Assembly: GCA_019973575.1 (NCBI GenBank)
Contig: BPUI01000004.1
Location: forward strand, 1-64,000
Reading direction: 5' to 3'
DNA from: Gemmatimonadetes bacterium T265
GTDB taxonomy: Bacteria > Gemmatimonadota > Gemmatimonadetes > Gemmatimonadales > Gemmatimonadaceae
Length of the DNA: 64,000 bases
Positions 12,501 to 54,606 of this stretch are shown piece after piece (the stretch's first letter is position 1; each line of letters begins with the position of its first letter). The notes below the pieces were generated by a model, which saw only the letters and a list, made by a program, of their open reading frames with translations, was not told the origin of the DNA and searched no databases. Position numbers and translations under genes: made by a program.

Positions 12501-12746
12501 GGCGGGCTCGCGGTGGGTTCGGCAGCAGGCGGGTGCGCCGAGCTGACAGCCCGACGCAGGACGCTGCGGCGTCAGGATGAGACGGCCGCCGGGCACGCGA
12601 GGTTTGAACGCGTGTGCCGCTCCGTCCATCTCCCCGTCCCCTGCCGAGGGACATGCCGCCGAGCGGTGCACGCGGGTCACGGCGTTCCGTGGTCACGTCG
12701 GATGCTCTCCGGGGCGGGCCTCGCTCGTGCGACGGCCTGGCGGTTT

Positions 12747-12793
12747 CCGGTCCCTTTTGGGACGTGGGCTGGAGCGTCTCAAACGGGTAGGCG
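12747..12793 (+). repeat. Intergenic repeat family, copy C
   Basis: It starts CCGGTCCCTTTTGGGAC, which can fold as a GTCCC stem with a TTTT loop, and continues to GCGTCTCAAACGGGTAGGC. The heptamer is altered here (GGTAGGC). The segment to 12939 has no gene; an intact GTTAGGC lies near 12879. Confidence 0.6.
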
Positions 12794-12939
12794 GGTTTGG
12801 CCCGGGGACGAGTAGTGGGACCGGGCTCGACAACCGCATTCCGTGTCGCGGAACTCATCCGCGCTGCGACGGTCCACCGTTAGGCGGGCCGCAGCGTTGC
12901 GTCAACACGCGAGCGGTTTCGGGACGCTAGTCGAAGCCG

Positions 12940-14565
12940 CTACGGCGTGCCCCGACCGGCGGTGAATTCGGGCGCGGCAAACGCGACCCGTCCCCCGACA
13001 ATCGTGAGTAGGCTCCGGGTGCCTGGCAGCGCGTCCGTGGGCGTGGTCATCGCGTCTTGGGAGAGGACGGCGAGGTCGGCGAGCATTCCCGGGGCCAGCG
13101 TCCCTTTCGACCGCTCCTGGAACTCGGCGAAGCTGGGGCCGCTGGTGAGGACGCCCAACGCCTGTTCGCGCGTAATCGCCTGCGGGTCGTGCGGGTCCGT
13201 CATGCGCGCGAACATGAAGAAGGGCGCCATCCCGCCGTCGGAGCCGTAGGCGAGGGGAATGCCGTCGGCCAAGAGCGTGCGGAACGGGCGCCCCGGCCGC
13301 GGCTGGGCGATGACGACGCCGAGCGCCCGGGCGCGGGCGTCCCGCGCGGGCGTCGTGAGGCCGTCGCCGTGCTCGAACCGGACCCGGAGCGGACGCCACC
13401 GCTCGGCCGGCGCGAGCTGCTCCATTTCGTCGAGGACCTCGTCCGTCATCGCGTCGCCGACGATGTGCAGCATGAGTTGGTCGTCGCCGCGGAGCGCCGT
13501 CCGGAACTGCCGGTCGAGGAAGTCGCGGCCGAAGTTCGGCCGGCCGCGCCAGCCCGCACGGTCCGGGTAGTCCGTCGTCAAGTAGGCGAGTTCCTCCAGC
13601 GGGGTGCCGTCGAGGATCCACTTGACGCCGGCGATTCGAGCCCGCGGGGTGAGGGACTCTTCGCCGCGGCCGTCGCGTTCACCCGCGCGCGCGTCCTCGT
13701 CGGGCATCGGCACGCGCATGAGCCGCAGGCGGAGCGGCACGTCCGCCTGCACCAGGGTCTGCCGGTAGGCACTCGGCGTCGCGCTCGTTCCCATGATCTG
13801 GACCGTGGTGACGCCCTCGGCGAGGCGGCGCTGCGCGTACGCCCACAGGTTGGCCACGCTCGCGGGCACGCCCGCCGCGGTGCCGAGCCGGCGCCGGATC
13901 GCGCTGCCCGCGTACTCCTCGGCGAGGCCGGTCAGATGCCCCTGCGGATCACGGTCGAAGCGTCCACCCTGCGGGTCTTGGACGCCGTCGTCGAGGCCTA
14001 ACGCGGCGAGCGCCGGCGTGTTGAGGATCACGCCGTGCCCCCACCAGGCGTAGAGCAGCACGGGGTGACCGCCTCCCGCGCGGTCCATCGCGGCCCGGGC
14101 TTCCGTCGGATGCCGGATGACCGTGACGCCTACACTCGCCTGGATCCACGCCGCCGCGCCCGCGCCCGCGGCGGCGCCGCGGACCGCCTCGCTCACGTCC
14201 TGGAGCGGCGGGTCCGCCATCGGGGGCCGCGACGTCCGGGCCTCCACCCCGTACGGCGCCCCGCCCACGTGGTCGTGCGCGTCGTTGATCCCCGGCATGG
14301 CCATGCGGCCGCGCAGGTCGATGACGCGGGTGTGGGCATCCGCCGTTGCGTCGATCGCGCTGTCCGAACCGGCCGCGAGCACGCGGTCCCCCCGGATCGA
14401 GACCGCTTCGACCCACGGGTGCGCGGGATCCCCGGTGTAGATGTGCCCGTGGCGGAGGATGAGATCGGGGGCCGACGTGGGCGTCTGCGCCGACGCGGAC
14501 GTCGCGCCGGCGAGCAGGAGCATGGCACACCAGGCGTGGGCTGGGGCGATCCGAGGGCCGCTCAC
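12940..14565 (-). CDS. Secreted amidohydrolase (Amidohydro_3 / YtcJ-like)
   Basis: 541 residues. I choose GTG 14565: it follows an AGAGAGAG ribosome-binding stretch and gives a signal peptide ending at ATSASA. Later markers of the family are the N-terminal beta segment RHGHIYTGDPAHPWVEAVSIRG, the metal-binding NDAHDHVGG (the H-x-H pair), a HIVGDAM segment, the ligand region RVRFEHGD, the Asp in LAYGSDGGMAPF and the final GTLAPGMLADLAVLSQD. These enzymes hydrolyse exocyclic amide or C-N bonds with a metal in the active site; the substrate here is unknown. The signal peptide places it outside the cytoplasm. One GTTAGGC heptamer is read as Leu-Gly in AALGLDDG. Confidence 0.85.
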   Translation of the reverse strand: MSGPRIAPAHAWCAMLLLAGATSASAQTPTSAPDLILRHGHIYTGDPAHPWVEAVSIRGDRVLAAGSDSAIDATADAHTRVIDLRGRMAMPGINDAHDHVGGAPYGVEARTSRPPMADPPLQDVSEAVRGAAAGAGAAAWIQASVGVTVIRHPTEARAAMDRAGGGHPVLLYAWWGHGVILNTPALAALGLDDGVQDPQGGRFDRDPQGHLTGLAEEYAGSAIRRRLGTAAGVPASVANLWAYAQRRLAEGVTTVQIMGTSATPSAYRQTLVQADVPLRLRLMRVPMPDEDARAGERDGRGEESLTPRARIAGVKWILDGTPLEELAYLTTDYPDRAGWRGRPNFGRDFLDRQFRTALRGDDQLMLHIVGDAMTDEVLDEMEQLAPAERWRPLRVRFEHGDGLTTPARDARARALGVVIAQPRPGRPFRTLLADGIPLAYGSDGGMAPFFMFARMTDPHDPQAITREQALGVLTSGPSFAEFQERSKGTLAPGMLADLAVLSQDAMTTPTDALPGTRSLLTIVGGRVAFAAPEFTAGRGTP

Positions 14566-14692
14566 AAGACGCTCTCTCTTCTGTCGTGGGTTGGTGGTCT
14601 CGATCGGCCGCGGCACCACCGGCCCTCTCGGGAGCGTGCGGGCCGACGGCGTTAGGCGCTCCCCGCCCCCGGTCAACTCGAGACCGCGCACG

Positions 14693-15229
14693 TCACGGGC
14701 TCCGGCGAGCGACGGCCGCTTCCGGCGCACGCACGTCGGTCCCGCCGCGCGCGAACGCCCGCGCGAGCCCGACCGCCGCGAGCGCGAAGCCGCCCGCCGT
14801 AAGCAGCGTGCGCGCCAGATGGCCGACTAGCCACCGGTCGCGCACGGCGGTCCACTCGGGCGGTGGCGCGGCCGCCGCCCAGCTCTGGACGACGCGGTTG
14901 AGCGGCACCTCGCGCGTGACCGTTACGGCGAGGGCGGCCGCGAACAGCACGGCCGCGACGGCGAACGGCGCCCGGGCGCCTCGGGCGGCGGCCGCGGCGG
15001 CGGCCAGCACCGCGACGGTGAGCGGCCACACGATCGGCATGACCGCGCCGAAGAGCGCGTCCTCGGCCTGGTGCCGGGCCACCCACGCGCTCGCGGGCAG
15101 CACGCGGGCCGAGTACTGGGCCAGCCCCGTCCCGAAGACGATCCCGGCCATTAGGCCGACGACGATCACCGCCCCGATCAGGAGCACGGCGCGCCAGCCG
15201 ATGATGGGCGGGTAGAGGCGTTGCACCAC
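14693..15229 (-). CDS. DUF1772 (anthrone oxygenase-like) membrane protein
   Basis: 178 residues from GTG 15229, which is preceded by a strong GGAGG ribosome-binding site 7 bp away. Four hydrophobic segments are visible: AVLLIGAVIVVGLMAGIVFG, GAVMPIVWPLTVAVL, PFAVAAVLFAAALAVTV and LLTAGGFALAAVGLA. The pattern of a first helix followed by GTGLAQY, and VPLNRVVQSW in the middle with a late RDRW, fits DUF1772, a family that includes fungal anthrone oxygenases. Its bacterial role is mostly unknown. It lies on the same strand as, and 128 bp upstream of, the amidohydrolase start. Confidence 0.75.
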   Translation of the reverse strand: MVQRLYPPIIGWRAVLLIGAVIVVGLMAGIVFGTGLAQYSARVLPASAWVARHQAEDALFGAVMPIVWPLTVAVLAAAAAAARGARAPFAVAAVLFAAALAVTVTREVPLNRVVQSWAAAAPPPEWTAVRDRWLVGHLARTLLTAGGFALAAVGLARAFARGGTDVRAPEAAVARRSP

Positions 15230-41076: not shown

Positions 41077-43563
41077 TCACCGCGCGAGCGCGCACGGCCG
41101 GCCGGTCTCGAGGTCGCACAGGTGGTGCTGGTACAGCGCCGGCGGGAGCGACGCCTTCACGCGCGCCAGGTCCGCGCGCACTTTGGCCCGCGTCGCGGCC
41201 GAGGGGTGGGCTCCGAGCACGGCGAGCACGCGCGTCCGCAGCCCCGCGACGAACGCGTCGCTCGCGCCGCGGAGTCGGGCCGGCGCGAACGCGTCCTGCC
41301 AGCGTTCGCCTTCCACCTCGCGGTGGCTCGTCAGCGGCAGCACCCGCGCGCTCACCGTGCCCCCGCGCGGCCCGCGGCCGCCGGCCCGCCGCGCGACGCG
41401 TGGCGTGTACAGCTCGGGGCTGGCGACCACCGGGAGGTTGCGCAGCAGGGGGGCGCCGACGAGCAGTCGCGTGAGGAACGCCCGCGCCTGCGCGCTCAGG
41501 GTCGACGCGACCGGGGTCTGTCCCGGCGTCACGTTCAGGTACGCGACGTAGCCCGCACACCCGGAGTTGCTCGGGTTGAGCCCGGTGGTGCCCGCCGTAT
41601 TGTCGTTGCAGGACGAGTACTCGACGTCGCGGCCGGTCCCCCCGACGTACGTGTCGACTTCGCCGACGTCGTCGCTGCCGAACGTGTCCTGGTCGTACCC
41701 GGTCATCCGCAGCCGGGTGGTCGACGCCGGGAAGAGGTCGAACTGGAGGATCTCCCCGGCGAACACGCCGTCCGGCGCGAGGACGCCGGTCCGGAAGACG
41801 GACGCCGACGGCGTGTAGGTCTGCCGGTTCACACACCCGTCGCAGGTGATGACGCGGGTCCAGGGCCGCACCGCGTTCGCGTAGCCGATCCAGAACCGCC
41901 AGTCGCCCCCGTTGAACGGGAGATTGCCGTCCCCGTCGTCGGTCACGACGAGCGAGTCGAGGCCGACGCGGAGCGCGCGCAGCCCGTAGTTCGTCCCCGC
42001 GATGTCGGGGTAGACCCAGGCCGCGACCAGCCGCTTCGCGTACCGCGCGCCGGCCCGCAGCTGCGAGATGTCGACCGACACGGTGACGTAGGGCGTGTCG
42101 CTGTCGAGGTGCGTCGTGTCGACGATCTGGAGGGGCAGGCTGGTGCCGGTGCCGGCCGGCGCCTCGGGCGCGTCCACGACCGCCGTGTAGAGCGCGGGGA
42201 CCGGCGGGCTCCCGCCGGCGAGGCCGCGGACGATCCGCTGCGGGTTGACCGGCAGGTACACGTGGAACGTGAACGGCACGCCCAGCCCGTCGGGCTGCGC
42301 GACGCACGGCGTCGTGATCCCGACCGGGTTGTTCCGTGGGATCCGGCGCGACTGGTGGAGCGAGTTGTCGCGGCAGGCGAGGATGTCGCCGCCGTCCAGG
42401 TGCACGAACACGTCCGTGATGACGCCCGGCACGTAGACGTTGGTCCCGATCGGCACCGGCGGCTGCCCGCGTTCGAGCGCCGTCGTCGGCGGCAGCAGCA
42501 CGGGCAGGGGCCGCTGGACCGCGACGGCGATCGGCGGGTGAATTTCGGAGTTGATCGCGTGCCCGCAGTCGATCACGTGGTAGCCGAGCGCGCTGATCCG
42601 GTCGCCGGCGATCGGGCGGAACCCCTCGGCCCACTGCGACCACTCCCATTCCACCTCCAGGCCGCCGACCGGGAGTCCGACGGCCCCGAGGTCGTCGGCC
42701 GTGCCGACCGTGAGCAGGCGCCGCAGCCAGGGGTCGACCTCGACCTTCACGTCGCCGTCGTTGTCGTGGTGGCCGCCGGGGCTGTCGATCCGCGAGACGA
42801 ACGAGTCGTAGACGCGCCCCTCGGCGAGTTCGAGCGTCGGGAGCTCGTCGTCCCCCCAGACGTCGATTGTGTACCACTCGGGCTCCAACTCCAGCCCGGT
42901 CGCCGTCCGCGAGCCGCAGAACGGCGTCGCGGCGGCGAACGTTTGGGGGCTGGTCGGCGCCGCGCCGGCCGGACTCGGGCCCGCCGGCGGCACGATCAGC
43001 GGGGGCACCTGGGCGACGAGCGTGACGGCGAAGGGCAGCTGGCGCTCGGGGTCCGCGTAATAGACGGTGTCGAGCACCGGCCGGCCGTTCACGATGACCG
43101 GCTTTCCGTTGATGAACTCGGGGGTCGTCGTGAAGCAGTGGGTGCCGCAGCCGGTGAAGTGGATCGTGTACGATCCCGGCACGTCGGGGGTGAAGCTCGC
43201 CGCGAGGGTGGCCGTGTTGGCGAGCCGCGCGTGACTCCCGGCCGGCACGTCGAGGCGCCACGTCCAGCCGCGTGACAGGGGCTCGGACGTCCGCCCGCCG
43301 CCGCAGTGCGGCCCCGCCCCGATCTCCGTCGTCACCAGCATGGGTTGCGTCGCGGTGACGGTGATCGGCACGCGGACCACGGCCACGGACGGACTCGCGG
43401 TGAGCGCCATCTCCAGGCTGTAGGACAGCGTACAACCCGACGCGCCCTGGATCGGCGGGTGAACCTGCGCCGACGCCGGACGCAGGGCCGCGTGCGCGAG
43501 GAGCGTCGCCCCTCCGCCGATGCGGGCGAGACGCGCGACGCGCGCGAACGCGACGGGGGCCAT
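41077..43563 (-). CDS. Large secreted protein of unknown function
   Basis: 828 residues from ATG 43563. The signal peptide reads ARIGGGATLLAHAALRPASA, with cleavage before QVHPPIQ. The mature part is beta-rich, with several Cys and Trp residues and immunoglobulin-like strands, for example FTPDVPGSYTIHFTGCGTH. Further landmarks are WYTIDVWGDDELPTLELAEG, WEWSQWAEGFRPIAGDRISA, a second VHPPI-like segment (IHPPIAVAV), YVTVSVDISQLRAGARYAKR and WRFWIGYANAVRPWT. I do not recognise a family. It lies between two MITE-like elements in the same orientation (40492 and 44115), which could indicate capture as a unit. The other long minus-strand frame over the same bases (to 40979) is a shadow. Confidence 0.7.
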   Translation of the reverse strand: MAPVAFARVARLARIGGGATLLAHAALRPASAQVHPPIQGASGCTLSYSLEMALTASPSVAVVRVPITVTATQPMLVTTEIGAGPHCGGGRTSEPLSRGWTWRLDVPAGSHARLANTATLAASFTPDVPGSYTIHFTGCGTHCFTTTPEFINGKPVIVNGRPVLDTVYYADPERQLPFAVTLVAQVPPLIVPPAGPSPAGAAPTSPQTFAAATPFCGSRTATGLELEPEWYTIDVWGDDELPTLELAEGRVYDSFVSRIDSPGGHHDNDGDVKVEVDPWLRRLLTVGTADDLGAVGLPVGGLEVEWEWSQWAEGFRPIAGDRISALGYHVIDCGHAINSEIHPPIAVAVQRPLPVLLPPTTALERGQPPVPIGTNVYVPGVITDVFVHLDGGDILACRDNSLHQSRRIPRNNPVGITTPCVAQPDGLGVPFTFHVYLPVNPQRIVRGLAGGSPPVPALYTAVVDAPEAPAGTGTSLPLQIVDTTHLDSDTPYVTVSVDISQLRAGARYAKRLVAAWVYPDIAGTNYGLRALRVGLDSLVVTDDGDGNLPFNGGDWRFWIGYANAVRPWTRVITCDGCVNRQTYTPSASVFRTGVLAPDGVFAGEILQFDLFPASTTRLRMTGYDQDTFGSDDVGEVDTYVGGTGRDVEYSSCNDNTAGTTGLNPSNSGCAGYVAYLNVTPGQTPVASTLSAQARAFLTRLLVGAPLLRNLPVVASPELYTPRVARRAGGRGPRGGTVSARVLPLTSHREVEGERWQDAFAPARLRGASDAFVAGLRTRVLAVLGAHPSAATRAKVRADLARVKASLPPALYQHHLCDLETGRPCALAR

Positions 43564-44114
43564 CGTCGAAGACTCCGGGTCGTGAGGGGGACCTCGATCG
43601 GCGGCCGCGGCGTGTCCGAGCGGACGCCGCACCGCGGGGACGGCCCGAGGGCACGGGCGAACGGCGGCCGTTCCGCCGTTCGCCCGTTCGAGGCGCCGCG
43701 ACGATACGGTCCACGCGACCAGCCGGCAAGCGGACGTCGGCACCGGTCGCGTGGCCGCGCGCGGGCCCGGCGGCGGCCGACCGCGGCTGCCGCGTGCCGA
43801 ACGCATTACGCGGTCGATGGGGGTGCGGCGGCGTCGCATCCGGCCCAACGTGGGGCGCCCGAACACGGGGCCAGGGGAGAGGTAGCGTGCCCCCGGTGCG
43901 GTGGGGGCACTGGTGGCGTCGGATTCCCGTGCGTGTCAGCATGACGCGGTCCGACCGGGCCGGCGCTCCGGCGCGGGCGTCCCCGCGCCCGCCGCGGTCT
44001 GCTCCGTCGGCCTAGCGCGGCGCCTCAGCCATGCAGGAACCCGCACCAGGCAGGCTCGAGCGGCCGATAACGCCGCCGACGTCCTGGCCGAAGTAGGCGC
44101 CGGCCGCCGCGACC

Positions 44115-44300: not shown

Positions 44301-47171
44301 CTAACTCCCGCGTGGCGCAGCACCGGTCCGCTCCCCTGTGCACTCCGGGCTTGCCAGCACGAGGCCGGCCGTGAGCGCGGCGATGGTGTGGCTGGTGTAG
44401 TCCACGCGCATGATCGAGCTGTTGAGCGCCCCGCGGACGCCCCCGATCGCGGCCGCGTCGTGCAAGCCCGGCCCGTCGTCCGGGCGGACGATCAGTTGGC
44501 GCGCGAACCGCACGGCGTGCCACCAGGCGGTCTCGTACGCGGCGCGCCGCCGCACGTCGTCGCCCGCGAGGCGCCACGCCTCCGCGACCCCTTCGGCGAT
44601 GAACGCCGTGTGGAACGTCGGTCCTCCGGGCGCCAGATCGCTGAGGAACGCCCCGGTCCGCTGGACCTGGTGATCGAGCGCCCAGTCCGCCACATCGAAG
44701 GCCCAGTCGGCATACCGGCGATCGCCGGTGCGGGCGAACAGGCGTCCGCACGCCTGCGGGATCCACCCGGCCTGCCCCCACCGATGCAGCCGGTCGAAGC
44801 GCCGCACCTGCCACGCCATGCCGGCGTGCCAGCGGTCTTCCTCGGCCGGGCGGCCCGCGGCCGCCAGCGCGACGAGCACCGCGTTCGGGAGGTAGTCGTT
44901 GTCGCGCTCGGCCCGGACGTCCTGCCCGTCGAGGTGCACGCTCCCGTCCGGGCGCAGGAGCGCCGCTAGGCGTGCCGCGAGTGCGACCCGCACCTCCTCG
45001 TCGGCGCCGTCCCCGGCGGCGCCGGGGTCGAGGTCGACGCTCGCGGTCAGGAGCGTCGCATCCGCCATCGCGCCGCACCGGTAGCCTTCCAGGCGGAGGC
45101 TTCCGCGCCCGGTCGCCGCGTCGATCTCGACGGCGTCGAGGCACGACGTGATGCCGGCTCGCGCTGCGGCGACCCACGCGTCGCGTCCGAGTAGACGTCC
45201 CGCGGCGAGCAGCCCGTGCAACCCGTGCACGACTCGCGCTGCGGTCCCCTGGTCCCACCGCCACGGCATTGTCGGCGAGCGGGCGTACAGCGGGAGCCCG
45301 GAGGCCAGGAGGTTGGCGTACAGGTGGCCGCCGAGGAGCGCGACGTCTTCCCGGAGGCTCGCCGCGGTGCACGGGTCCCGCGGCGGGGTGAACCCGAAGC
45401 GGCGCGGCACCGGGCCGTGCGGACTCCAGGCCCACGTCGTGGTGCGATAGGTCGTCCAGTCGGCGGGTCCCGGCGTCGCCCCCGCTTTCCGGAGCAGCTC
45501 GGCGACGAGCTTCGACTTGTCCCACTCGTACTGCGGCGCGACCGAATCGAGCAGGAACGCACGATGCGTCCCGTCTTGGGCGTCCTGGGCGACCGCGATC
45601 GAGTCGAGGCCGAGGCGCAGCTTGCGCGCCGCCGCCGCCGGCTCGTAGCGCCGCAACCGCTCGGGGTCGGTGAGCACGGAGACGACCGGGGTTATGTCGA
45701 GCACCCGATCTCCGAGGCCGCCGAATCGCCGGTCGGCGAGCGCGGCGCGGGTCGCGGCGACCACCGCGTCCTCGAGGCGGCGCCGCTCGCTGATCGCACA
45801 GCCGACGACCCCCTGGCGATACAGTGACACCGCGATCGCGCTGAACCCGTCGGGCAGGAGGGCGTCGGCGAGGGGCGTCCCCGACACCTCGCCGCCCGCG
45901 AGGCTCGCTAACACGTCGCGGGCGCGGTCTGTCAGGGCCCGGCCGACGGCGGCATCCTCGACCCATCGGCGTTCGGGCGGGTCCGGCGCCCCGTACGGGA
46001 GCCAGCGCTGCCCGTCCTCGACGAGCTTCGTCACGCGATGCCGAAAGAGGTCGAACGGCTCGAGCTCGCCCAGCCGCGCGTTGCGCCGGGCGAGCGCGAG
46101 CTGCTCCGCCTCGCTCGTGAAGACCTGCGTGTTCGGCAGCGCGCCGCCGACCTTCACCGGCCACTCCGTGCTGCGCACGACGATCCCGAACGTCGCGAAA
46201 TCGAGATCGCGCGGCGCGATCGGCTCGAGCGCGCCGAACATCGTGACGGCGATCTTGAGCCGCGCGAGACGCGACGCGGTCAGGGCGGCGCCGGCGACGG
46301 TCTTCACGGTCGCGAGGACGACGTCCCGCCCGAGGTCGGCGTCGCCCGGGTCGAAGTGCCAGAACCCGTCGCGCGCGACCCGCTCGTCGGTGTCCCGGTC
46401 GCGCAGCGACACCCACACGCCACCCGCGGCGCGCTCCGCGGCGTCCACGATGCTCGGCGGCCGCGGGACGGTGCCGTCGCGGGTCACCTGCTCGGCGACG
46501 ACGCGTGCGACCTGCGTCGGCGTGAGGCCGTCCGCGACGCGGCCAGCTTCCGGGAGCGCCCGGACCCGGCGGTAGCCGGGGGTCGGCGTCGCGCGCGCCA
46601 TCCCGACGTCGTCCCAGATGTCGAAGAGGGCGCGCACCCGGTACCCGAGCGCTTCCGCGCGTTCGACGCCCCCGCGTCCCGGGAACCGGACGAGGCAGAC
46701 GCCCCCGAGCACCGTGAACCCGTGGCGCTCCAACACGGCCGCGCCCGCGAGGAAGGACCGGCCGGAACTGATGGAATCGTCGATCAGGACGACGGGCTGC
46801 GCGCGGTCGGCCGGGCCCTCGATCTGGCGTCCCCCCGCGTGGCCCTTCGGCTGCTCGCGGACGACGAGCCCGCGGTAGCGGCCCCCCGCCGCGAGGACGG
46901 TGCTCGTCAGTAGCGGCACGGCGGTCGCGCCGAACGTCGCGAGCTGCGGCGTCTCGAAGTCGCGTAGGGCCGCGAGGAGGCAGCGCGCCGCGGCGGCGCC
47001 GCCGTCGGCCGTTAGGGACACGTTCCAGGAGTAGAACATCCACGGTGCCGACACGCCGCCGCGGTCGACCACCGGCTCGCCGGGCCCCGCCCACAAGATC
47101 CCGCGCTCCCGCAGCAGCCCGAGCAGGACGTCCCGGTCGCTCGGCGCAGCGCCGCCCCCGGCCGGTGTCAC
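44301..47171 (-). CDS. OPRTase-like / tandem AMMECR1-like / alpha-toroid fusion protein
   Basis: 956 residues. Residues about 1-195 resemble orotate phosphoribosyltransferase: a flexible catalytic loop REQPKGHAGGRQIEGP (105-120) and a PRPP motif VVLIDDSISSG (127-137), also VSAPWMFYSWN. Residues 215-395 read like an AMMECR1-type region (GVWVSLRDRD, RLKIAVTMFGALEPIAPRDLD, FGIVVRS). Residues 410-580 repeat the plan more clearly (AVSLYRQGVVGCAI, DITPVVSVLTDPERL, LDSVAPQYEWDKSKLVAELL, RKAGATPGPADW). Residues 600-950 are repeated helix pairs with GLHGLLAAGRLLGRDAWVAA and YRCGAMADATLLTA, like six-hairpin glycosidases, epimerases or other alpha/alpha-toroids. The start is 8 bp after the upstream PEQ-repeat gene, so it is co-transcribed. 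No signal peptide. The TAG stop lies in a GTTAGAC variant. Confidence 0.75.
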   Translation of the reverse strand: MTPAGGGAAPSDRDVLLGLLRERGILWAGPGEPVVDRGGVSAPWMFYSWNVSLTADGGAAAARCLLAALRDFETPQLATFGATAVPLLTSTVLAAGGRYRGLVVREQPKGHAGGRQIEGPADRAQPVVLIDDSISSGRSFLAGAAVLERHGFTVLGGVCLVRFPGRGGVERAEALGYRVRALFDIWDDVGMARATPTPGYRRVRALPEAGRVADGLTPTQVARVVAEQVTRDGTVPRPPSIVDAAERAAGGVWVSLRDRDTDERVARDGFWHFDPGDADLGRDVVLATVKTVAGAALTASRLARLKIAVTMFGALEPIAPRDLDFATFGIVVRSTEWPVKVGGALPNTQVFTSEAEQLALARRNARLGELEPFDLFRHRVTKLVEDGQRWLPYGAPDPPERRWVEDAAVGRALTDRARDVLASLAGGEVSGTPLADALLPDGFSAIAVSLYRQGVVGCAISERRRLEDAVVAATRAALADRRFGGLGDRVLDITPVVSVLTDPERLRRYEPAAAARKLRLGLDSIAVAQDAQDGTHRAFLLDSVAPQYEWDKSKLVAELLRKAGATPGPADWTTYRTTTWAWSPHGPVPRRFGFTPPRDPCTAASLREDVALLGGHLYANLLASGLPLYARSPTMPWRWDQGTAARVVHGLHGLLAAGRLLGRDAWVAAARAGITSCLDAVEIDAATGRGSLRLEGYRCGAMADATLLTASVDLDPGAAGDGADEEVRVALAARLAALLRPDGSVHLDGQDVRAERDNDYLPNAVLVALAAAGRPAEEDRWHAGMAWQVRRFDRLHRWGQAGWIPQACGRLFARTGDRRYADWAFDVADWALDHQVQRTGAFLSDLAPGGPTFHTAFIAEGVAEAWRLAGDDVRRRAAYETAWWHAVRFARQLIVRPDDGPGLHDAAAIGGVRGALNSSIMRVDYTSHTIAALTAGLVLASPECTGERTGAAPRGS

Positions 47172-47179
47172 GGGGCGCC

Positions 47180-48142
47180 CTACCGCTGCTGGCGGAGTTG
47201 GATCGTGTGGACGGCGCCTTCCACGATCGCGACGCTCTGGAGAAACACCGCCTCGACCAGGCGCTCGAGCCGGACGAGTTGCGCGGACAACCCCGGCTCG
47301 GCGATCTCGCCGATCTCCGGATGCTCGGGTTGCTCGGGCTGCTCAGGATGTTCCGGCTGCTCGGGCCGTTCTGGCCGCTCCGGATGTTCGGGGTGCTCCG
47401 GGCGCTCCGGGCGCTCCGGGCGCTCCGGGTGTTCGGGACGTTCGGGCTGCTCCGGCTGCTCCGGCTGCTCCGGCTGCTCCGGCTGCTCCGGCTGCTCCGG
47501 TCGCTCCGGCCGCTCGGGTTGCTCGGGTTGCTCGGGTTGCTCGGGTTGCTCGGGTTGCTCGGGTTGCTCGGGTTGCTCGGGTTGCTCGGGTTGCTCGGGT
47601 TGCTCGGGTTGCTCGGGTTGCTCGGGTTGCTCGGGTTGCTCGGGTTGCTCGGGTTGCTCGGGTTGCTCCGGGCGCTCGGGGTGTTCTGGGCGTTCGGGCT
47701 GCTCCGGCTGTTCGGGGCGCTCCGGCTGCTCCGGGAACTCGGGTGCTTCGGGGAACTCCGGCGCTTCGGGGAACTCGGGAAACTCGGGTTGCCCGACCGG
47801 CGGCACCGATATCGGCACGCCCTGCGGGACGCTCGAATGCGTTTCGAACGACCCGGCCACCGTGCCCTTCTGCGACTGTACCTGCAGCCGGTAGTGGCCG
47901 GGCTGAATCCCATTGAAAAAGAAGTTCTGCGTCCCGGTGCCGGTGAACACCGGGGTATGGCCGATCACCGCCTGCTGGTTGAACGGCAACAGCTCGATGA
48001 GCGCGACGACGAGTCCGCCGTCGTTGCGATCGACCTTGAGGCGCAGTGTGAGGTCGAACGACTGCCCGAAGTTCAGCGGCGCGCCGAGCGCCGTCACGTC
48101 GTCGGTGCTGAACGGCCCCTTCGCCACAACGACGTCGCCCAT
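47180..48142 (-). CDS. Pro-Glu-X triplet-repeat protein, partner of the fusion protein
   Basis: 320 residues from ATG 48142, preceded by a GAGGAT ribosome-binding stretch. Residues about 1-115 are a small beta-rich domain (FDLTLRLKVDRNDGGLVVAL, FFFNGIQPGHYRLQVQSQ). About residues 119-277 are Pro-Glu-X triplets, mostly PEQ, also PER, PEH, PEF and PEA, likely a stiff polyproline-like or disordered spacer. The last 43 residues form an amphipathic helix pair: LSAQLVRLERLVEAVFLQSVAI and AVHTIQLRQQR. No signal peptide was seen. The gene lies 8 bp upstream of the AMMECR1-type fusion on the same strand. It may be a scaffold, anchor or substrate for the enzyme; no homologue is known to me. Confidence 0.75.
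   Translation of the reverse strand: MGDVVVAKGPFSTDDVTALGAPLNFGQSFDLTLRLKVDRNDGGLVVALIELLPFNQQAVIGHTPVFTGTGTQNFFFNGIQPGHYRLQVQSQKGTVAGSFETHSSVPQGVPISVPPVGQPEFPEFPEAPEFPEAPEFPEQPERPEQPEQPERPEHPERPEQPEQPEQPEQPEQPEQPEQPEQPEQPEQPEQPEQPEQPEQPEQPEQPEQPERPERPEQPEQPEQPEQPEQPEQPERPEHPERPERPERPEHPEHPERPERPEQPEHPEQPEQPEHPEIGEIAEPGLSAQLVRLERLVEAVFLQSVAIVEGAVHTIQLRQQR
47515..47667 (+). repeat. 9-bp tandem repeat, 17 exact copies (CGGGTTGCT)
   Basis: Seventeen head-to-tail copies lie inside the PEQ gene, each encoding Pro-Glu-Gln on the minus strand. Degenerate copies extend on both sides from about 47300 to 47790. Since the unit is 9 bp, any copy-number change keeps the frame. Confidence 0.95.
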
Positions 48143-48996: not shown

Positions 48997-50388
48997 TCAC
49001 GGCGCGGCCTTGTTGCAGGCGCCGGTGTAGTTCGGGTTGTTCTGCTCCTGCACCGGGATGGGCAGGTTGACGTCCGTGCCGTACGCGCTGATGCCCTGGC
49101 CCGAGTAGGCGCCCGTAGGGAACACCGTTTCGGCCCCGCGGTTGTAGAACCGGATGAGGCGCCGCATGTCCCCGAGCCGGTGCCCGGTGAGCCAGAGCGT
49201 GAACGCCCGCTCCCGAAAGAGCAGATTCACTCGCCCGGTCTGGTCGCCGGGATCGGTGATCGTCGCGGTGTCCCCGACGGCCGTGCGCGCCTGCGCCAGG
49301 TAACTCAGGAACTGCGTGGGCGCGCCGGCCGCGAGCGCCCCTTCGGCCTGGATCAGCCGCGCCTCGGCACCGGTCGCGAGCGGGATGGGCGACGTGCGCT
49401 GCGGATACTTGAGCTGGGTGATCCACTCGCGCGCGCCGTCGAACCCGGGGCCGCCGGTGTCGAAGTACGGGACACGCGGGTCGTTGGCGCTCAGGTAGGG
49501 CAGCCCGTTTCCCCCCTCCCGGTCGATCGCGCTGAACCGCTTGTTGATGTTGTCGAAGTAGTAAATGCCGTTGTACTGGCGGGTCGTGTTCGACGAGGTG
49601 TAGAGGTAATACGTGAAGGTCGTCGACACCGCAGCCGCCTGGGTGGCCGCGTCGGCAACGTCGTTCAGGTCGAGCAGCGCGCGGGCGCGCCCCACGCGGG
49701 CGAGGTTGGCGAGCGAGTCGACCTTCGCCGCCGTGGCGAGCGTCAGTGCGGTGTCGAACTTCGCGACCGCGATCTGCAGTACCTGGTCCGTGGTGTTCGG
49801 CTGGCCGTAGACGAGCGTCGTCCCGTCGGACGCGAGTGAACTGAACGGGATACCCGAGCAGTACGACTCCGCCATGGCGACGTAGCTGAACCCGGCCAGA
49901 CTCGTCACCTCCGACAGGCGCGCGTCGGTCGGCGCCGTCTTCGCGAACTGTGCCTCGGCCAACTCGGCGGTCGACCGCGACCGCTGGATGGCGCGGAAGA
50001 TGTCCGCGTTGGTCGCGTTCGAGGGCTGCGTGCTCCGCGCGTCGGTCTCGTTGCGGGTCGTGAACGTGTCGACGCTCCCGACCTCGTCGGCGAGCAGGCC
50101 GCCGTAGTTGATCAATCCCTCGTAGGTCCCGCCGTCGCCCGCGTAGCCGACGATGAAGTCGCCGATCGCGGCCGCGTAGTACGCGGCGAGGCCGGACGTG
50201 CCCGAGAGACTGCTCGGCTGCGCAATGCCGGGGTTGCTCACGGTGAGCAGCTTGTCGGTGCTGCAGCCGCCGAGGAGGCCGACGGCGGCCAGGGCCACCG
50301 CCCCGGCGCTCGTCCGGCGGCCCGCGCGGCGGGCCGGACGCGCGGGCGTCATCGTCGCTCGCATCGGGAAGAGGGAATGGGGTTGCAT
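48997..50388 (-). CDS. SusD/RagB-family outer-membrane lipoprotein
   Basis: 463 residues (ATG 50388; later ATGs at 50364 or 50352 also fit). A lipobox (AVGLLGGC) follows a positively charged start, so it is a lipoprotein. The body shows the SusD plan: TPR-like helices (AIQRSRSTAELAEAQFAKTA, ADIFRAIQR), the GFSYVAMAESYCSGIPFSS segment, and the C-terminal LLFRERAFTLWLTGHRLGDM and RRLIRFYNRG. SusD proteins cap a SusC channel and bind oligosaccharides or other polymers at the cell surface. It starts 9 bp after the SusC stop, so the pair is one operon. No sugar-degrading enzyme is nearby. Confidence 0.9.
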   Translation of the reverse strand: MQPHSLFPMRATMTPARPARRAGRRTSAGAVALAAVGLLGGCSTDKLLTVSNPGIAQPSSLSGTSGLAAYYAAAIGDFIVGYAGDGGTYEGLINYGGLLADEVGSVDTFTTRNETDARSTQPSNATNADIFRAIQRSRSTAELAEAQFAKTAPTDARLSEVTSLAGFSYVAMAESYCSGIPFSSLASDGTTLVYGQPNTTDQVLQIAVAKFDTALTLATAAKVDSLANLARVGRARALLDLNDVADAATQAAAVSTTFTYYLYTSSNTTRQYNGIYYFDNINKRFSAIDREGGNGLPYLSANDPRVPYFDTGGPGFDGAREWITQLKYPQRTSPIPLATGAEARLIQAEGALAAGAPTQFLSYLAQARTAVGDTATITDPGDQTGRVNLLFRERAFTLWLTGHRLGDMRRLIRFYNRGAETVFPTGAYSGQGISAYGTDVNLPIPVQEQNNPNYTGACNKAAP

Positions 50389-50397
50389 CGCCGCGCC

Positions 50398-53300
50398 TTA
50401 GTAGTTGTAGGAGAGGCGGACCGAGAACAGCCGGACCGGCGGCTGCGAGAGGAAGTCGAACTGCGACCAGTTCTGCTGCGCGGCGCCGTTCGCCTCCGGA
50501 TCGAGCCCGCTGTACTTGGTCGACGTCAGCAGGTTGCGCCCGGCGAACGTGAGCGTTCCGTTGCTCGCCTTGCCGAAGAGCAGCGGCCGCGGGAGCGCGA
50601 TCGAGGCCGAGAGTTCGCGCAGCTTCACGAAGTCGCCTTTTTCGACGTACCCGGCGTAGTCGCCGTAATCGTTAGACGCGATCGCGCGCGCCTGGTCGAA
50701 GAGCGACGAGCCCTTCTGGCTCAGTTCGGGGCAGATCCCGAACAGGCAGCGGTAGATCTCGGTCCCGTTGAACTGCTTCCAGCCGCCGCGGTAGTCGACG
50801 AGCGCCTGCAGGCGCACCAGGCTGTTCGGCCCGAGCGTGAGCGCCGGCTGCACCGAGAGCGTGCGCCGCGGCAGCGGGTTGCCGAGGTACTGGACCCTGC
50901 CGTCGGCCGCGAGGTGCACCTCGTCGGGCGTGATGATGCCGTCGTGATTCGCGTCGTTGTACGTGAACGGGACCTGGAAGTACGAACCGGCGGGGTACCC
51001 CGTGCGGTGCTGCTGGACCGAGTTGAAGCCGAAGATGATCGGCGTCGTGTCGCGCAGCGAATAGACGTGGTTCGCGAGCGTGGCGAAGTTCCACGTGATG
51101 TCGAACCCAACCGTCCGCTGCCGCACGAACGTCGTCGTGAGCCCGACTTCGAGCCCCTTATTGGTGACCGTGCCGATGTTCTGCGTGCGCGTCGGCGCGT
51201 CCGGGCCGGTGCCGACCGACGGCGCGATCGGGACGGCGACGAGCTGGTCGCGCGTGCGGCGCCCGAAGTAGGTCACCTGGAGGTCCACGCGCCGGTCGAA
51301 GAGCCCCGCGTCGAACCCGACCTCGCCCTCGGTCGTGATCTCGGGGCGCAGATTCGTGTTCCCGAGGTTGCCGATCGTGAAGCCCGGCACGTCGTTGCCG
51401 GTGACCGAGACGGCGACCGGGTTGAAGTAGCGCAGCGCGGCGAGCTGCTGCGGGCGCTGGCCGGACTTGCCGATCGCGGCCCGCAGGCGGAACGAGTTGA
51501 GGGCCGCGAGCTTCGGGAAGAACGACTCGTCGCTCAGCACCCACGACGCGTTCGCCGACGGGTACGTGATGAATCCCACGTTCTGCCCGAACGCGCTGTT
51601 GTTGTCGCCGCGCACCGAGCCGGTGACGAAGACCCGGTCGCGGAACCCGATCTGCTCGGACGCGAGCGCGCCGAAGAGCCGCGTCTCGATCTGATCTTCC
51701 GCGACGGCGAACCGGGAGTTGGTCGTCGAGAGCGTCCCGGTGCCGGGCAGGATGTTGTAGCCGACCGATTGCGTCCCGTCGGTGCGGTCGCGCTGGTACT
51801 GCAGGCCGACCGTGGTCGTGGACGTCACGTCGCCCGGCAGCGTGCGCGTCGCGATCGCGCTCGCGTTGCCCGTATACGTGGCGATCCGGTACTCATTCCG
51901 GTTGCGCTGCCCCTGCGCGCGGTCCGGGTCGAACAGCGTGAGCAGGCCGTAGGGGGCGAGGTACTGGTCGTCCCGGTTGAAGATATCGAGGCCGGCCTGT
52001 CCGACGAACCGCAGCCACGTGAGCGGGCGGTAGTTGAGCGTACTGCCGCCGGTTAGGCGGTCGCCCGTCTGGACCGTCGTGATCCCGTCGAGGATCGCGG
52101 GGCCCGCGCGCAAGTAGCCCTGGCGCAACGTGTCGTACTGCGTCGAGCCGAGCAGCCCGCCCCCGAGAAATCCCTGGTCGTTGTTGTCGTTCTGCGGGCG
52201 CGGGTTGTTGAGGTTCAGGTAGCCGAGGTTCGCCGTCAGGTCGAGGTTCGACCGCAGCTGCGCCGTGGCGTTCGTCCGCAGGTTGATGCGGCGGATGCCG
52301 CTGTTCTGGTAGACGCCCTTCTCGTCCTCGTAGTCGCCCGACAGGTAGTACGTCGCCCGGTCGCCGCCGCCGGCGGCGCTGGCCCCGTAACGCTGCCGGT
52401 TGCCGACCCGGAACGGGGTCGTGCGCGGGTCGTTGAGCGGCTGGAACGACTGCAGCGAGTCCTGCTTGACACACGACCCGTCCGCGAGCGACTGCAGGTA
52501 GCAGCTCCCCGTGACCGCCCCGGTACTCGTCGTCCCGAACCCGACCGTGTTGAGCGGGAACGTATACGGGTTGTCGAGCGCCCCGCCCTCCGCGAACGCC
52601 GTGTACTGGGTGCGGCCGCGCACCCCGCGCTTGGTCGTCACCTGGATCACGCCGTTGGCCGCCTGCGTGCCGTACAGCCCGGTCGCCGCCGGCCCCTTCA
52701 GGATCTCGACGTTCTCGATGTCCTCGGGCTTCAGGTCGTTGATGCGCGACGGGTACTGCCCGCCGACGTCGAGCGACGACGAGTTGGGGTCGCTGTTGAC
52801 GCGCACGCCGTCGATGATGAGCAACGGCTCGTTCGAGTTCGACAGCGAGTTGCCGCCCCGGATGCGCACGCGCGCGCCCGACCCCGACGCGCCGCCGCTC
52901 TGGGTGATCACGACGCCGGCGGCTTTCCCTTCCAGCAGTTCCGAACCGCTCGTGATGGCCGGCAGCGGCTGCTGGTCGGGCGTGATGCGCGCCACCTGGT
53001 TGCCCGTCTCGCGCGCGGCCTGCTCCGCGCCTGTCGCGGTCACGACGATCTCCGACAGGGACTGCGCCTGGGACCGGTCGAGCGTGAAGTTGAGCGTGAC
53101 CGGGGCGCCCGCGACGACGGTCGCCCGCAAGGCCGTGAGCGCGTAGCCGAGCCGGCGCGCGCGCACCTCGACGGTCCCCGCCAGCACGCCGGTGATGCGG
53201 AACGTGCCGTTGTCGTTCGTGAGAGCGCTCTGGTTCCCGCCCACCACGTAGACCTGGACGCTGCCGAGCGGCGTGTTCGTGCCACGCTCGACGACGCGCC

Positions 53301-53463
53301 CGCTGACGACGCCCGTGGCCGCGGGCTGCTGGGCGCCGGCAGGGGCCGAGCGGCCCACGAGCGCGGCGGCCGTGAGGGCGGCCGCGCCACTGGGGGGGAG
53401 GACGGCGGGTGCGAGGGCGAGCACCGCGGACGCGCGGCGCACGCCGCGGCTCGAGCTCGGCAT
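50398..53463 (-). CDS. SusC/RagA-type TonB-dependent outer-membrane receptor
   Basis: 1,021 residues from ATG 53463. After the signal peptide comes a carboxypeptidase-regulatory-like domain (TGVVSGRVVERGTNTPLGSV), then a TonB-dependent plug with SELLEGKAAGVVITQSGGAS and RIRGGNSLSNSNEPLLIIDG and LKPEDIENVEILKGPAATGL, ending YGTQAANGVIQVTTKRG. The rest is a beta-barrel of many short amphipathic strands, and the C terminus VRLFSVRLSYNY ends in an aromatic residue, as outer-membrane barrels do. It imports large nutrients with TonB energy, together with the SusD gene downstream. One GCCTAAC heptamer is read as Leu-Thr. Confidence 0.95.
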   Translation of the reverse strand: MPSSSRGVRRASAVLALAPAVLPPSGAAALTAAALVGRSAPAGAQQPAATGVVSGRVVERGTNTPLGSVQVYVVGGNQSALTNDNGTFRITGVLAGTVEVRARRLGYALTALRATVVAGAPVTLNFTLDRSQAQSLSEIVVTATGAEQAARETGNQVARITPDQQPLPAITSGSELLEGKAAGVVITQSGGASGSGARVRIRGGNSLSNSNEPLLIIDGVRVNSDPNSSSLDVGGQYPSRINDLKPEDIENVEILKGPAATGLYGTQAANGVIQVTTKRGVRGRTQYTAFAEGGALDNPYTFPLNTVGFGTTSTGAVTGSCYLQSLADGSCVKQDSLQSFQPLNDPRTTPFRVGNRQRYGASAAGGGDRATYYLSGDYEDEKGVYQNSGIRRINLRTNATAQLRSNLDLTANLGYLNLNNPRPQNDNNDQGFLGGGLLGSTQYDTLRQGYLRAGPAILDGITTVQTGDRLTGGSTLNYRPLTWLRFVGQAGLDIFNRDDQYLAPYGLLTLFDPDRAQGQRNRNEYRIATYTGNASAIATRTLPGDVTSTTTVGLQYQRDRTDGTQSVGYNILPGTGTLSTTNSRFAVAEDQIETRLFGALASEQIGFRDRVFVTGSVRGDNNSAFGQNVGFITYPSANASWVLSDESFFPKLAALNSFRLRAAIGKSGQRPQQLAALRYFNPVAVSVTGNDVPGFTIGNLGNTNLRPEITTEGEVGFDAGLFDRRVDLQVTYFGRRTRDQLVAVPIAPSVGTGPDAPTRTQNIGTVTNKGLEVGLTTTFVRQRTVGFDITWNFATLANHVYSLRDTTPIIFGFNSVQQHRTGYPAGSYFQVPFTYNDANHDGIITPDEVHLAADGRVQYLGNPLPRRTLSVQPALTLGPNSLVRLQALVDYRGGWKQFNGTEIYRCLFGICPELSQKGSSLFDQARAIASNDYGDYAGYVEKGDFVKLRELSASIALPRPLLFGKASNGTLTFAGRNLLTSTKYSGLDPEANGAAQQNWSQFDFLSQPPVRLFSVRLSYNY

Positions 53464-54606
53464 GCCAGGTCTCCGGAACGGGGGAACGGCGGGCCGAGGG
53501 GGAGCGGCGCGCCTCGACACATGGGCCGGCGACCCGGAGGTCGCCCCACTACTTCCGAGAGACTCATCGGTAAGCGATCCGGGTCACAACCGCGCAACGG
53601 TTCGTCGCGGCCGCCGAATGCGGCCGGACGCTACGCGCGGACGCGGGCCGGATGTGGCCTACATGCGCCGGTTCCCGTACGTGGGCGGCGCCAAGCCGCA
53701 TGCGCGTCCGCGATCGCCCGAAGGCGTCATGCGGCGTCCGTTTTCGTTCGTGGCGCTGCGACGCCCAAGTTGTGCGGGGTGGCACGCACAGGCACCGGGT
53801 CGCGAATGCGTTCCACGGGTGGTGCGGGGCGCCGCAGGCGCGCGCAGGCCGACTGCAGGGGGCGCGCGAGCGGCGTGCCGCCGAACCAGGCTCCGAAGCG
53901 GACGCAGCCGAGTGGCGCCGCGGTGAGCCAGGGCGGCAAGCGGGTCTTCGCGAAGCCGAGGTCGCGCGCTTCCCGGAGGCGGAATGCGGCCGGTTCGGCG
54001 GCACGATGGCGTCCCTGGAGCCAAGTCGCTGCCGACAGCCGGACGCCCGGTGCCGGAACGGATCGGCGCCGGGCGCGGGCGTGCTCGCCCCCGCCCCCAC
54101 CCCCGTCGGGGACGATCCGACCGATGTGGGGCGGCACCCCAACGGTCGCCGGAACCCGCGCCCGGCACGCCCGGCCGGCCAATAAGACTAGTTGTTATTT
54201 CGTTATCATTCGCAAGCTCGGGCCATTTCCCGAACGCCCGGGTTGGACGTCAGCTCGGACCGGCCCGGGGGCACTGGGCGCGTGCCGCGCCCCTGCACGC
54301 TCTTCCTGAGTCGCCTCCGGGATCTCCGGGCCGAGATCCGCGCCGCCGAGGCGACCGGCGCGCGACGAGCGCGACGTCGCCGTCCGGGGTCGCCCTCGGC
54401 CCGGGCCGCACGCGCTTCGACCTGCCGCCCCGGACGAGCGCCCCGCGCGCTTGCTCGACCGCGGTGCGGGCGGTCCTGCGCTCCCCCGTGCGACCGGCGG
54501 GCGGACGCGAAGCGGAGCGACCGAAGTCGCCGCAACGCGCCTCACAGGACTTCCCGATTCCAAAGTTTGCAGGGGTGCGGCACGCTACGTCGACCCGTCA
54601 TACGGG
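53464..54606. other. Intergenic gap between SusC and matrixin genes
   Basis: About 1.1 kb without a supportable gene. One AT-rich island near 54182-54225 stands out from the GC-rich background. The long ORFs here are GC-driven and lack any family feature. Confidence 0.4.

Follow-up and report, generated by a model that had tools for sequence, protein, structure and literature searches.

What might two adjoining genes do together when one encodes a protein of short acidic repeats and the other a fusion of a phosphoribosyltransferase (PRTase), an AMMECR1 domain and an (alpha/alpha)6 toroid? The question is raised by a window of DNA from Gemmatimonadetes bacterium T265, that is, the whole stretch of 64,000 nucleotides that was analysed (contig BPUI01000004.1, positions 1 to 64,000). 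Both open reading frames, and hence all features given below, are on the minus strand. P0002 (47180..48142; 320 amino acids) is followed after 8 bp by P0001 (44301..47171; 956 amino acids, GTG start), and a check of the reading frames verified both the spacing and the coordinates of the original prediction. Systems for the chemical modification of acidic repeat proteins probably form a group that has no name as yet, with this pair among its members. We favor the reading that P0002 and P0001 are a substrate and its maturase, at a probability of about 0.55.

The repeat protein and the domains of the fusion

P0002 has the layout first proposed for it, with an N-terminal beta-like domain (residues 1-117), a Pro-Glu-X (PE-X) array (residues 137-277; 47312..47734) and a C-terminal helix. 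The array comprises 47 units, in which Pro and Glu are invariant and yet four Pro and two Glu codons are used, a pattern that selection acting on the protein would leave. The third position is Gln in 29 units, Arg in 11, His in six and Ile in one (the last), and 21 distinct 9-mers are present. Long repeats of short period are rare in the T265 genome: P0002 is one of two places in the 1.26 Mb scanned. Among 179 genomes of the same taxonomic family, T265 alone carries a PE-X array of comparable length (0 of the 178 others). The PE-X arrays in those other genomes are short, several are in seemingly noncoding frames, and none sits inside a P0002-like protein. No leader peptide or export signal was seen on the P0002 translation, and inspection of the open frame (323 amino acids) revealed no upstream extension with a signal peptide.

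The N-terminal region of P0001 (residues 1-205; 46557..47171) had been called orotate phosphoribosyltransferase (OPRT)-like, a call borne out by matches to the NCBIfam pyrE model (2.1e-9) and to solved OPRT structures in the PDB (down to 6e-9). It has in common with PyrE the fold, the PRPP motif VVLIDDSISSGRS and the Arg, Lys and His of the catalytic loop VREQPKGHAGGRQIEG (VREQPKGHAGG). Loop and motif together cover about residues 103-138 (46758..46865), as placed by alignment with PyrE from 16 relatives. To this extent, the earlier claim that the PRPP motif and the catalytic-loop residues are kept is correct. However, several positions conserved in the relatives' PyrE differ in P0001. In place of their SGR.S, GAD and DRE motifs, which we take to be orotate-site positions, P0001 has DRGGVSAP, FGATAVPL and VRFPG. 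Moreover, T265 has a second PyrE-like match elsewhere in its genome (C1:1560314).

The original prediction placed two AMMECR1-like regions in tandem behind the PRTase domain, and one of them stands. The AMMECR1 domain at about residues 443-590 (45402..45845) matches Pfam PF01871 over residues 456-574 with 4.7e-15 and 55.9 bits against a cut-off of 25, and its z score relative to shuffled sequences is 13. Scores under the NCBIfam cut-offs for TIGR00296 and for TIGR04335 (AmmeMemoRadiSam A) were obtained. The domain is thus shared with the AMMECR1 family at the Pfam level, but P0001 joins it to a PRTase on one side and a toroid on the other. The proposed upstream copy (about residues 205-400) gave no Pfam match when the segment was searched alone, HMMs built from canonical and from family domains failed, and PSSM and profile z scores of 0.6 and 1.9 were no better than shuffles. 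Residues 206-400 (45972..46556) consequently carry no domain assignment. By eye the segment looks AMMECR1-like, an impression that was counted as no evidence.

The C-terminal part of P0001 (residues 598-946; 44334..45380) is an (alpha/alpha)6 toroid; modeling and a fold search bear out the earlier suggestion. A model of residues 401-956 built on a 60-sequence family alignment gives the toroid with confidence; a single-sequence AlphaFold model of full-length P0001 (pLDDT 38) was left unused. The best structural matches of the modeled toroid are cellobiose 2-epimerases, GH76 mannanases, AprG and GH88 enzymes (Z 23-26), a group of sugar enzymes with this fold that also includes AGE-type epimerases and glucuronyl C5-epimerase. 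Sequence identity to these enzymes is 10-16%; P0001 differs from them in its AMMECR1 fusion and in having its own set of conserved motifs. The shared fold, as modeled, does not give the reaction of the P0001 toroid.

The AMMECR1-toroid family and its gene neighborhoods

The family to which P0001 belongs was found through a toroid-only match in another Gemmatimonadota genome (L033) and then through two plasmid homologues. An alignment-based scan of 84,980 species genomes gave 80 AMMECR1-toroid loci, spread over many bacterial phyla and one archaeon. The proteins are mostly 510-740 amino acids long and consist of an AMMECR1-like N-terminal region followed by the same toroid as in P0001. Residues 413-933 of P0001 align end to end with the Woesearchaeota protein L051 (2e-29 over 558 columns), with both domains collinear. 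Other members show weak toroid matches to GH76 (1.2e-6) or to the C-terminal C5-epimerase model (C5-epim_C; 2.9e-5). A direct Pfam AMMECR1 match is given by four of 60 members including P0001 (best 3.7e-12). In a profile-profile comparison (hhalign), the N-terminal region of the family matches canonical AMMECR1 with 90% probability (E 1.6e-6); without the archaeal and rumen members, these values become 42% and 2.6e-4. Given this drop, the homology of the divergent majority to AMMECR1 is probable, not proven. Neither Pfam nor NCBIfam holds a model that names AMMECR1-toroid proteins as such, and no description of AMMECR1 fusions, AMMECR1-toroid proteins, or GD-repeat or hydroxylase systems was found in the open-access literature. 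Judged from the alignments, P0001 is a divergent member of this undescribed family.

The family alignment also indicates what P0001 has kept. Conserved toroid residues still present are Y629, R646, W803, D829, E860, R922, D924 and H928. In place of the NxYPGE motif, on the other hand, P0001 has NDYLPNA: the family-invariant Glu is replaced by Ala764, the nearby Tyr and Gly are also replaced, and so is another near-invariant Tyr of the family. With these residues lost, the toroid of P0001 may have a different activity or none at all.

In the sequence covered around the 80 loci, a (Gly-Asp)n (GD) array is present in 50 and lies within 3 kb of the enzyme in 48 (median distance 1.0 kb). These statistics are built from GD arrays only. 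In 42 of the 80 loci the array occurs together with an Asp/Asn beta-hydroxylase, with examples confirmed by Pfam, and 12 of 30 genomes without a nearby array carry one elsewhere; some loci stop at a contig edge beside the enzyme. As background, (GD)10 is found in four of 395 Gemmatimonadota genomes; these four include the sole genome of the 395 with a P0003-type enzyme, where enzyme and array share a contig. Enzyme and hydroxylase are fused in L052 and L093. Fusions of array and hydroxylase are seen by Pfam in L094 and L109, and also, as judged from the C-terminal sequence, in L085, L095, L121 and L122. A search for the Asp beta-hydroxylase model PF05118 gave no match in the T265 genome, but control genomes were equally silent.

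The GD proteins themselves are diverse, and some are hydrophobic at the N terminus. The L067 protein is lipoprotein-like with a TbpB barrel, that of L053 is a BapA-type adhesin, and those of L050 and L120 are short peptides behind a double-glycine leader. In the Rhizobium locus L050, the peptide clusters with an exporter of the C39-peptidase type and a radical SAM protein, which is a precursor/maturase arrangement. The P0001/P0002 pair resembles such RiPP-type clusters in that a repeat substrate would adjoin its own enzyme. It differs in that P0002 is a 320-amino-acid protein in which neither leader nor export signal is visible.

The full architecture of P0001 is far rarer than the family. None of the 80 AMMECR1-toroid proteins has a PRTase domain. 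In 98 relatives, whole P0001 matched nothing but PyrE-type proteins, and searches with residues 205-956 in 394 genomes of the phylum and with residues 397-956 in 178 genomes of the taxonomic family likewise failed to turn up another PRTase-AMMECR1-toroid fusion. A first scan of genome contigs with P0001 alone and scans of viral sequences gave no match, and a plasmid search returned a PyrE gene as its sole match. For P0002, nothing was found beyond a 0.004 match, and the matching protein lacks a repeat of this kind. The original prediction made its case depend on homologues of the two genes being neighbors elsewhere; in the sets searched, the exact pair was seen once, in T265.

Readings of the pair

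In view of the strong association of the family with repeat proteins, and since the window repeats the same theme with a PE-X array where other loci have GD and a PRTase where they have the hydroxylase, P0001 is read as the maturase of P0002. Guilt-by-association suggests acidic proteins with short repeats as the targets of AMMECR1-toroid enzymes, and on the same grounds we lean, somewhat beyond even odds, toward P0002 being the substrate of P0001. In this scenario, P0002 would be a stiff, acidic repeat protein and the AMMECR1 domain of P0001 might present the repeat peptide. The toroid, to go by its sugar-epimerase/glycosidase fold and its conserved residues, could make or trim a modification on the repeat. 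The OPRT-like domain, with its PRPP motif kept, may use PRPP to transfer a phosphoribosyl group to a small acceptor or to a side chain. That the mark on P0002 is ribosyl-derived is nonetheless doubtful, the presence of the PRTase domain being the one reason to propose a ribosyl step. The original prediction saw P0002 as substrate or scaffold; the (Gly-Asp)n arrays and Asp/Asn beta-hydroxylases of the family lend this view independent support, whereas the exact pair is unreplicated. The uniqueness of the pair, the loss of the NxYPGE Glu and the lack of a repeat-protein neighbor beside the closest relative, L051, count against the substrate/maturase reading.

Some of the same observations would suit a small-molecule enzyme, acting in ribosyl-sugar or nucleotide metabolism and merely sharing an operon with a structural linker or surface-related protein. 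The fold neighbors of the toroid act on free sugars, the substrate of OPRT is a small base, no other genome searched has a P0002 homologue and L051 stands without a repeat protein. This reading is possible but rather unlikely: it leaves aside how strongly repeat proteins accompany the family and how seldom such repeats occur in T265. The replaced residues in and around the NxYPGE motif, together with the changed orotate-site positions, could instead mean that P0001 is a degenerate or regulatory pseudoenzyme, a scaffold to which the repeat binds but by which it is left unmodified. We regard this as improbable, because the 956-amino-acid frame is intact with typical GC by codon position, and the PRPP motif, the loop Arg, Lys and His and most conserved toroid residues are retained. 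A variant of the AMMECR1-MEMO1-radical SAM triad, for which the genuine AMMECR1 domain of P0001 might speak, is already largely refuted: Memo (PF01875) gave no match in the T265 genome while the same search was positive in five control genomes, so this does not look like the standard system, and the nearest relatives of P0001 are toroid fusions rather than Memo fusions.

Returning to P0002 as the substrate of P0001, we tentatively extend the proposal to the family as a whole, in a form that we hold to be less probable than its negation. The pair would be one branch of an undescribed class of modification systems in many bacterial phyla and an archaeon, in which AMMECR1-toroid enzymes modify acidic di- or tripeptide repeats. 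The targets would mostly be (Gly-Asp)n after Asp beta-hydroxylation and, in T265, (Pro-Glu-X)n with PRPP-derived ribose.

To our knowledge, the chemistry of the AMMECR1 domain is unsettled. If the class is real, it would provide the first concrete context for this domain, as a module that binds repeat peptides. The fusion of AMMECR1 to a catalytic fold beside a candidate substrate makes the role of the domain directly testable. The domain is conserved into humans, where mutations lead to developmental disease (PMC5502304). Chains of (Gly-Asp)n with hydroxylation, or of (Pro-Glu-X)n with some other decoration, would moreover add a new kind of acidic biopolymer to those encoded by genes; they would possibly bind metals, and some GD proteins resemble TbpB-type lipoproteins.

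The (Gly-Asp)n system and rumen-type loci

Among the 80 fetched family loci (L051-L130), a (Gly-Asp)n protein, an Asp/Asn beta-hydroxylase and an AMMECR1-toroid enzyme make up an apparently undescribed three-part system (examples: L052, L055, L061, L094, and L109), the components of which are also found fused to one another. The rumen-type loci (L078, L099, L112, and L118, at positions of about 3.7-4.9 kb) encode membrane-anchored AMMECR1-toroid proteins together with, a few genes upstream, an acidic repeat protein built of 9-10-residue units (DGDTGDPQP or DSDEIPDTDE).

Plasmid loci and window neighbors

The Rhizobium lusitanum plasmid carries a RiPP-like cluster (L050:6872-11365 and 12745-14919), which resembles RiPP clusters: a 73-aa peptide with a double-glycine leader followed by a (GD)n core lies beside a radical SAM protein, the AMMECR1-toroid enzyme, HlyD, and a C39-peptidase ABC exporter. 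On the Thioclava plasmid, a MurF-like Mur ligase gene (L049:8198-9709) is divergent from the AMMECR1-toroid gene.

In the window, a SusD-like/TonB-dependent receptor (SusC-like) pair (48997-53520) is positioned immediately upstream of P0002 (Pro-Glu-X repeat protein) and P0001 (fusion enzyme). Downstream of P0001, a 929-aa ORF (41077-43866) has no Pfam match at E 0.01.

(GD)n arrays in lipoproteins

One (GD)n array is contained in a TbpB-like lipoprotein (L067:11711-12547; PF01298, 1.3e-5), and L081 and L117 encode similar (GD)n-bearing lipoproteins. The placement of the array within TbpB-like lipoproteins hints that they bind metal or iron.
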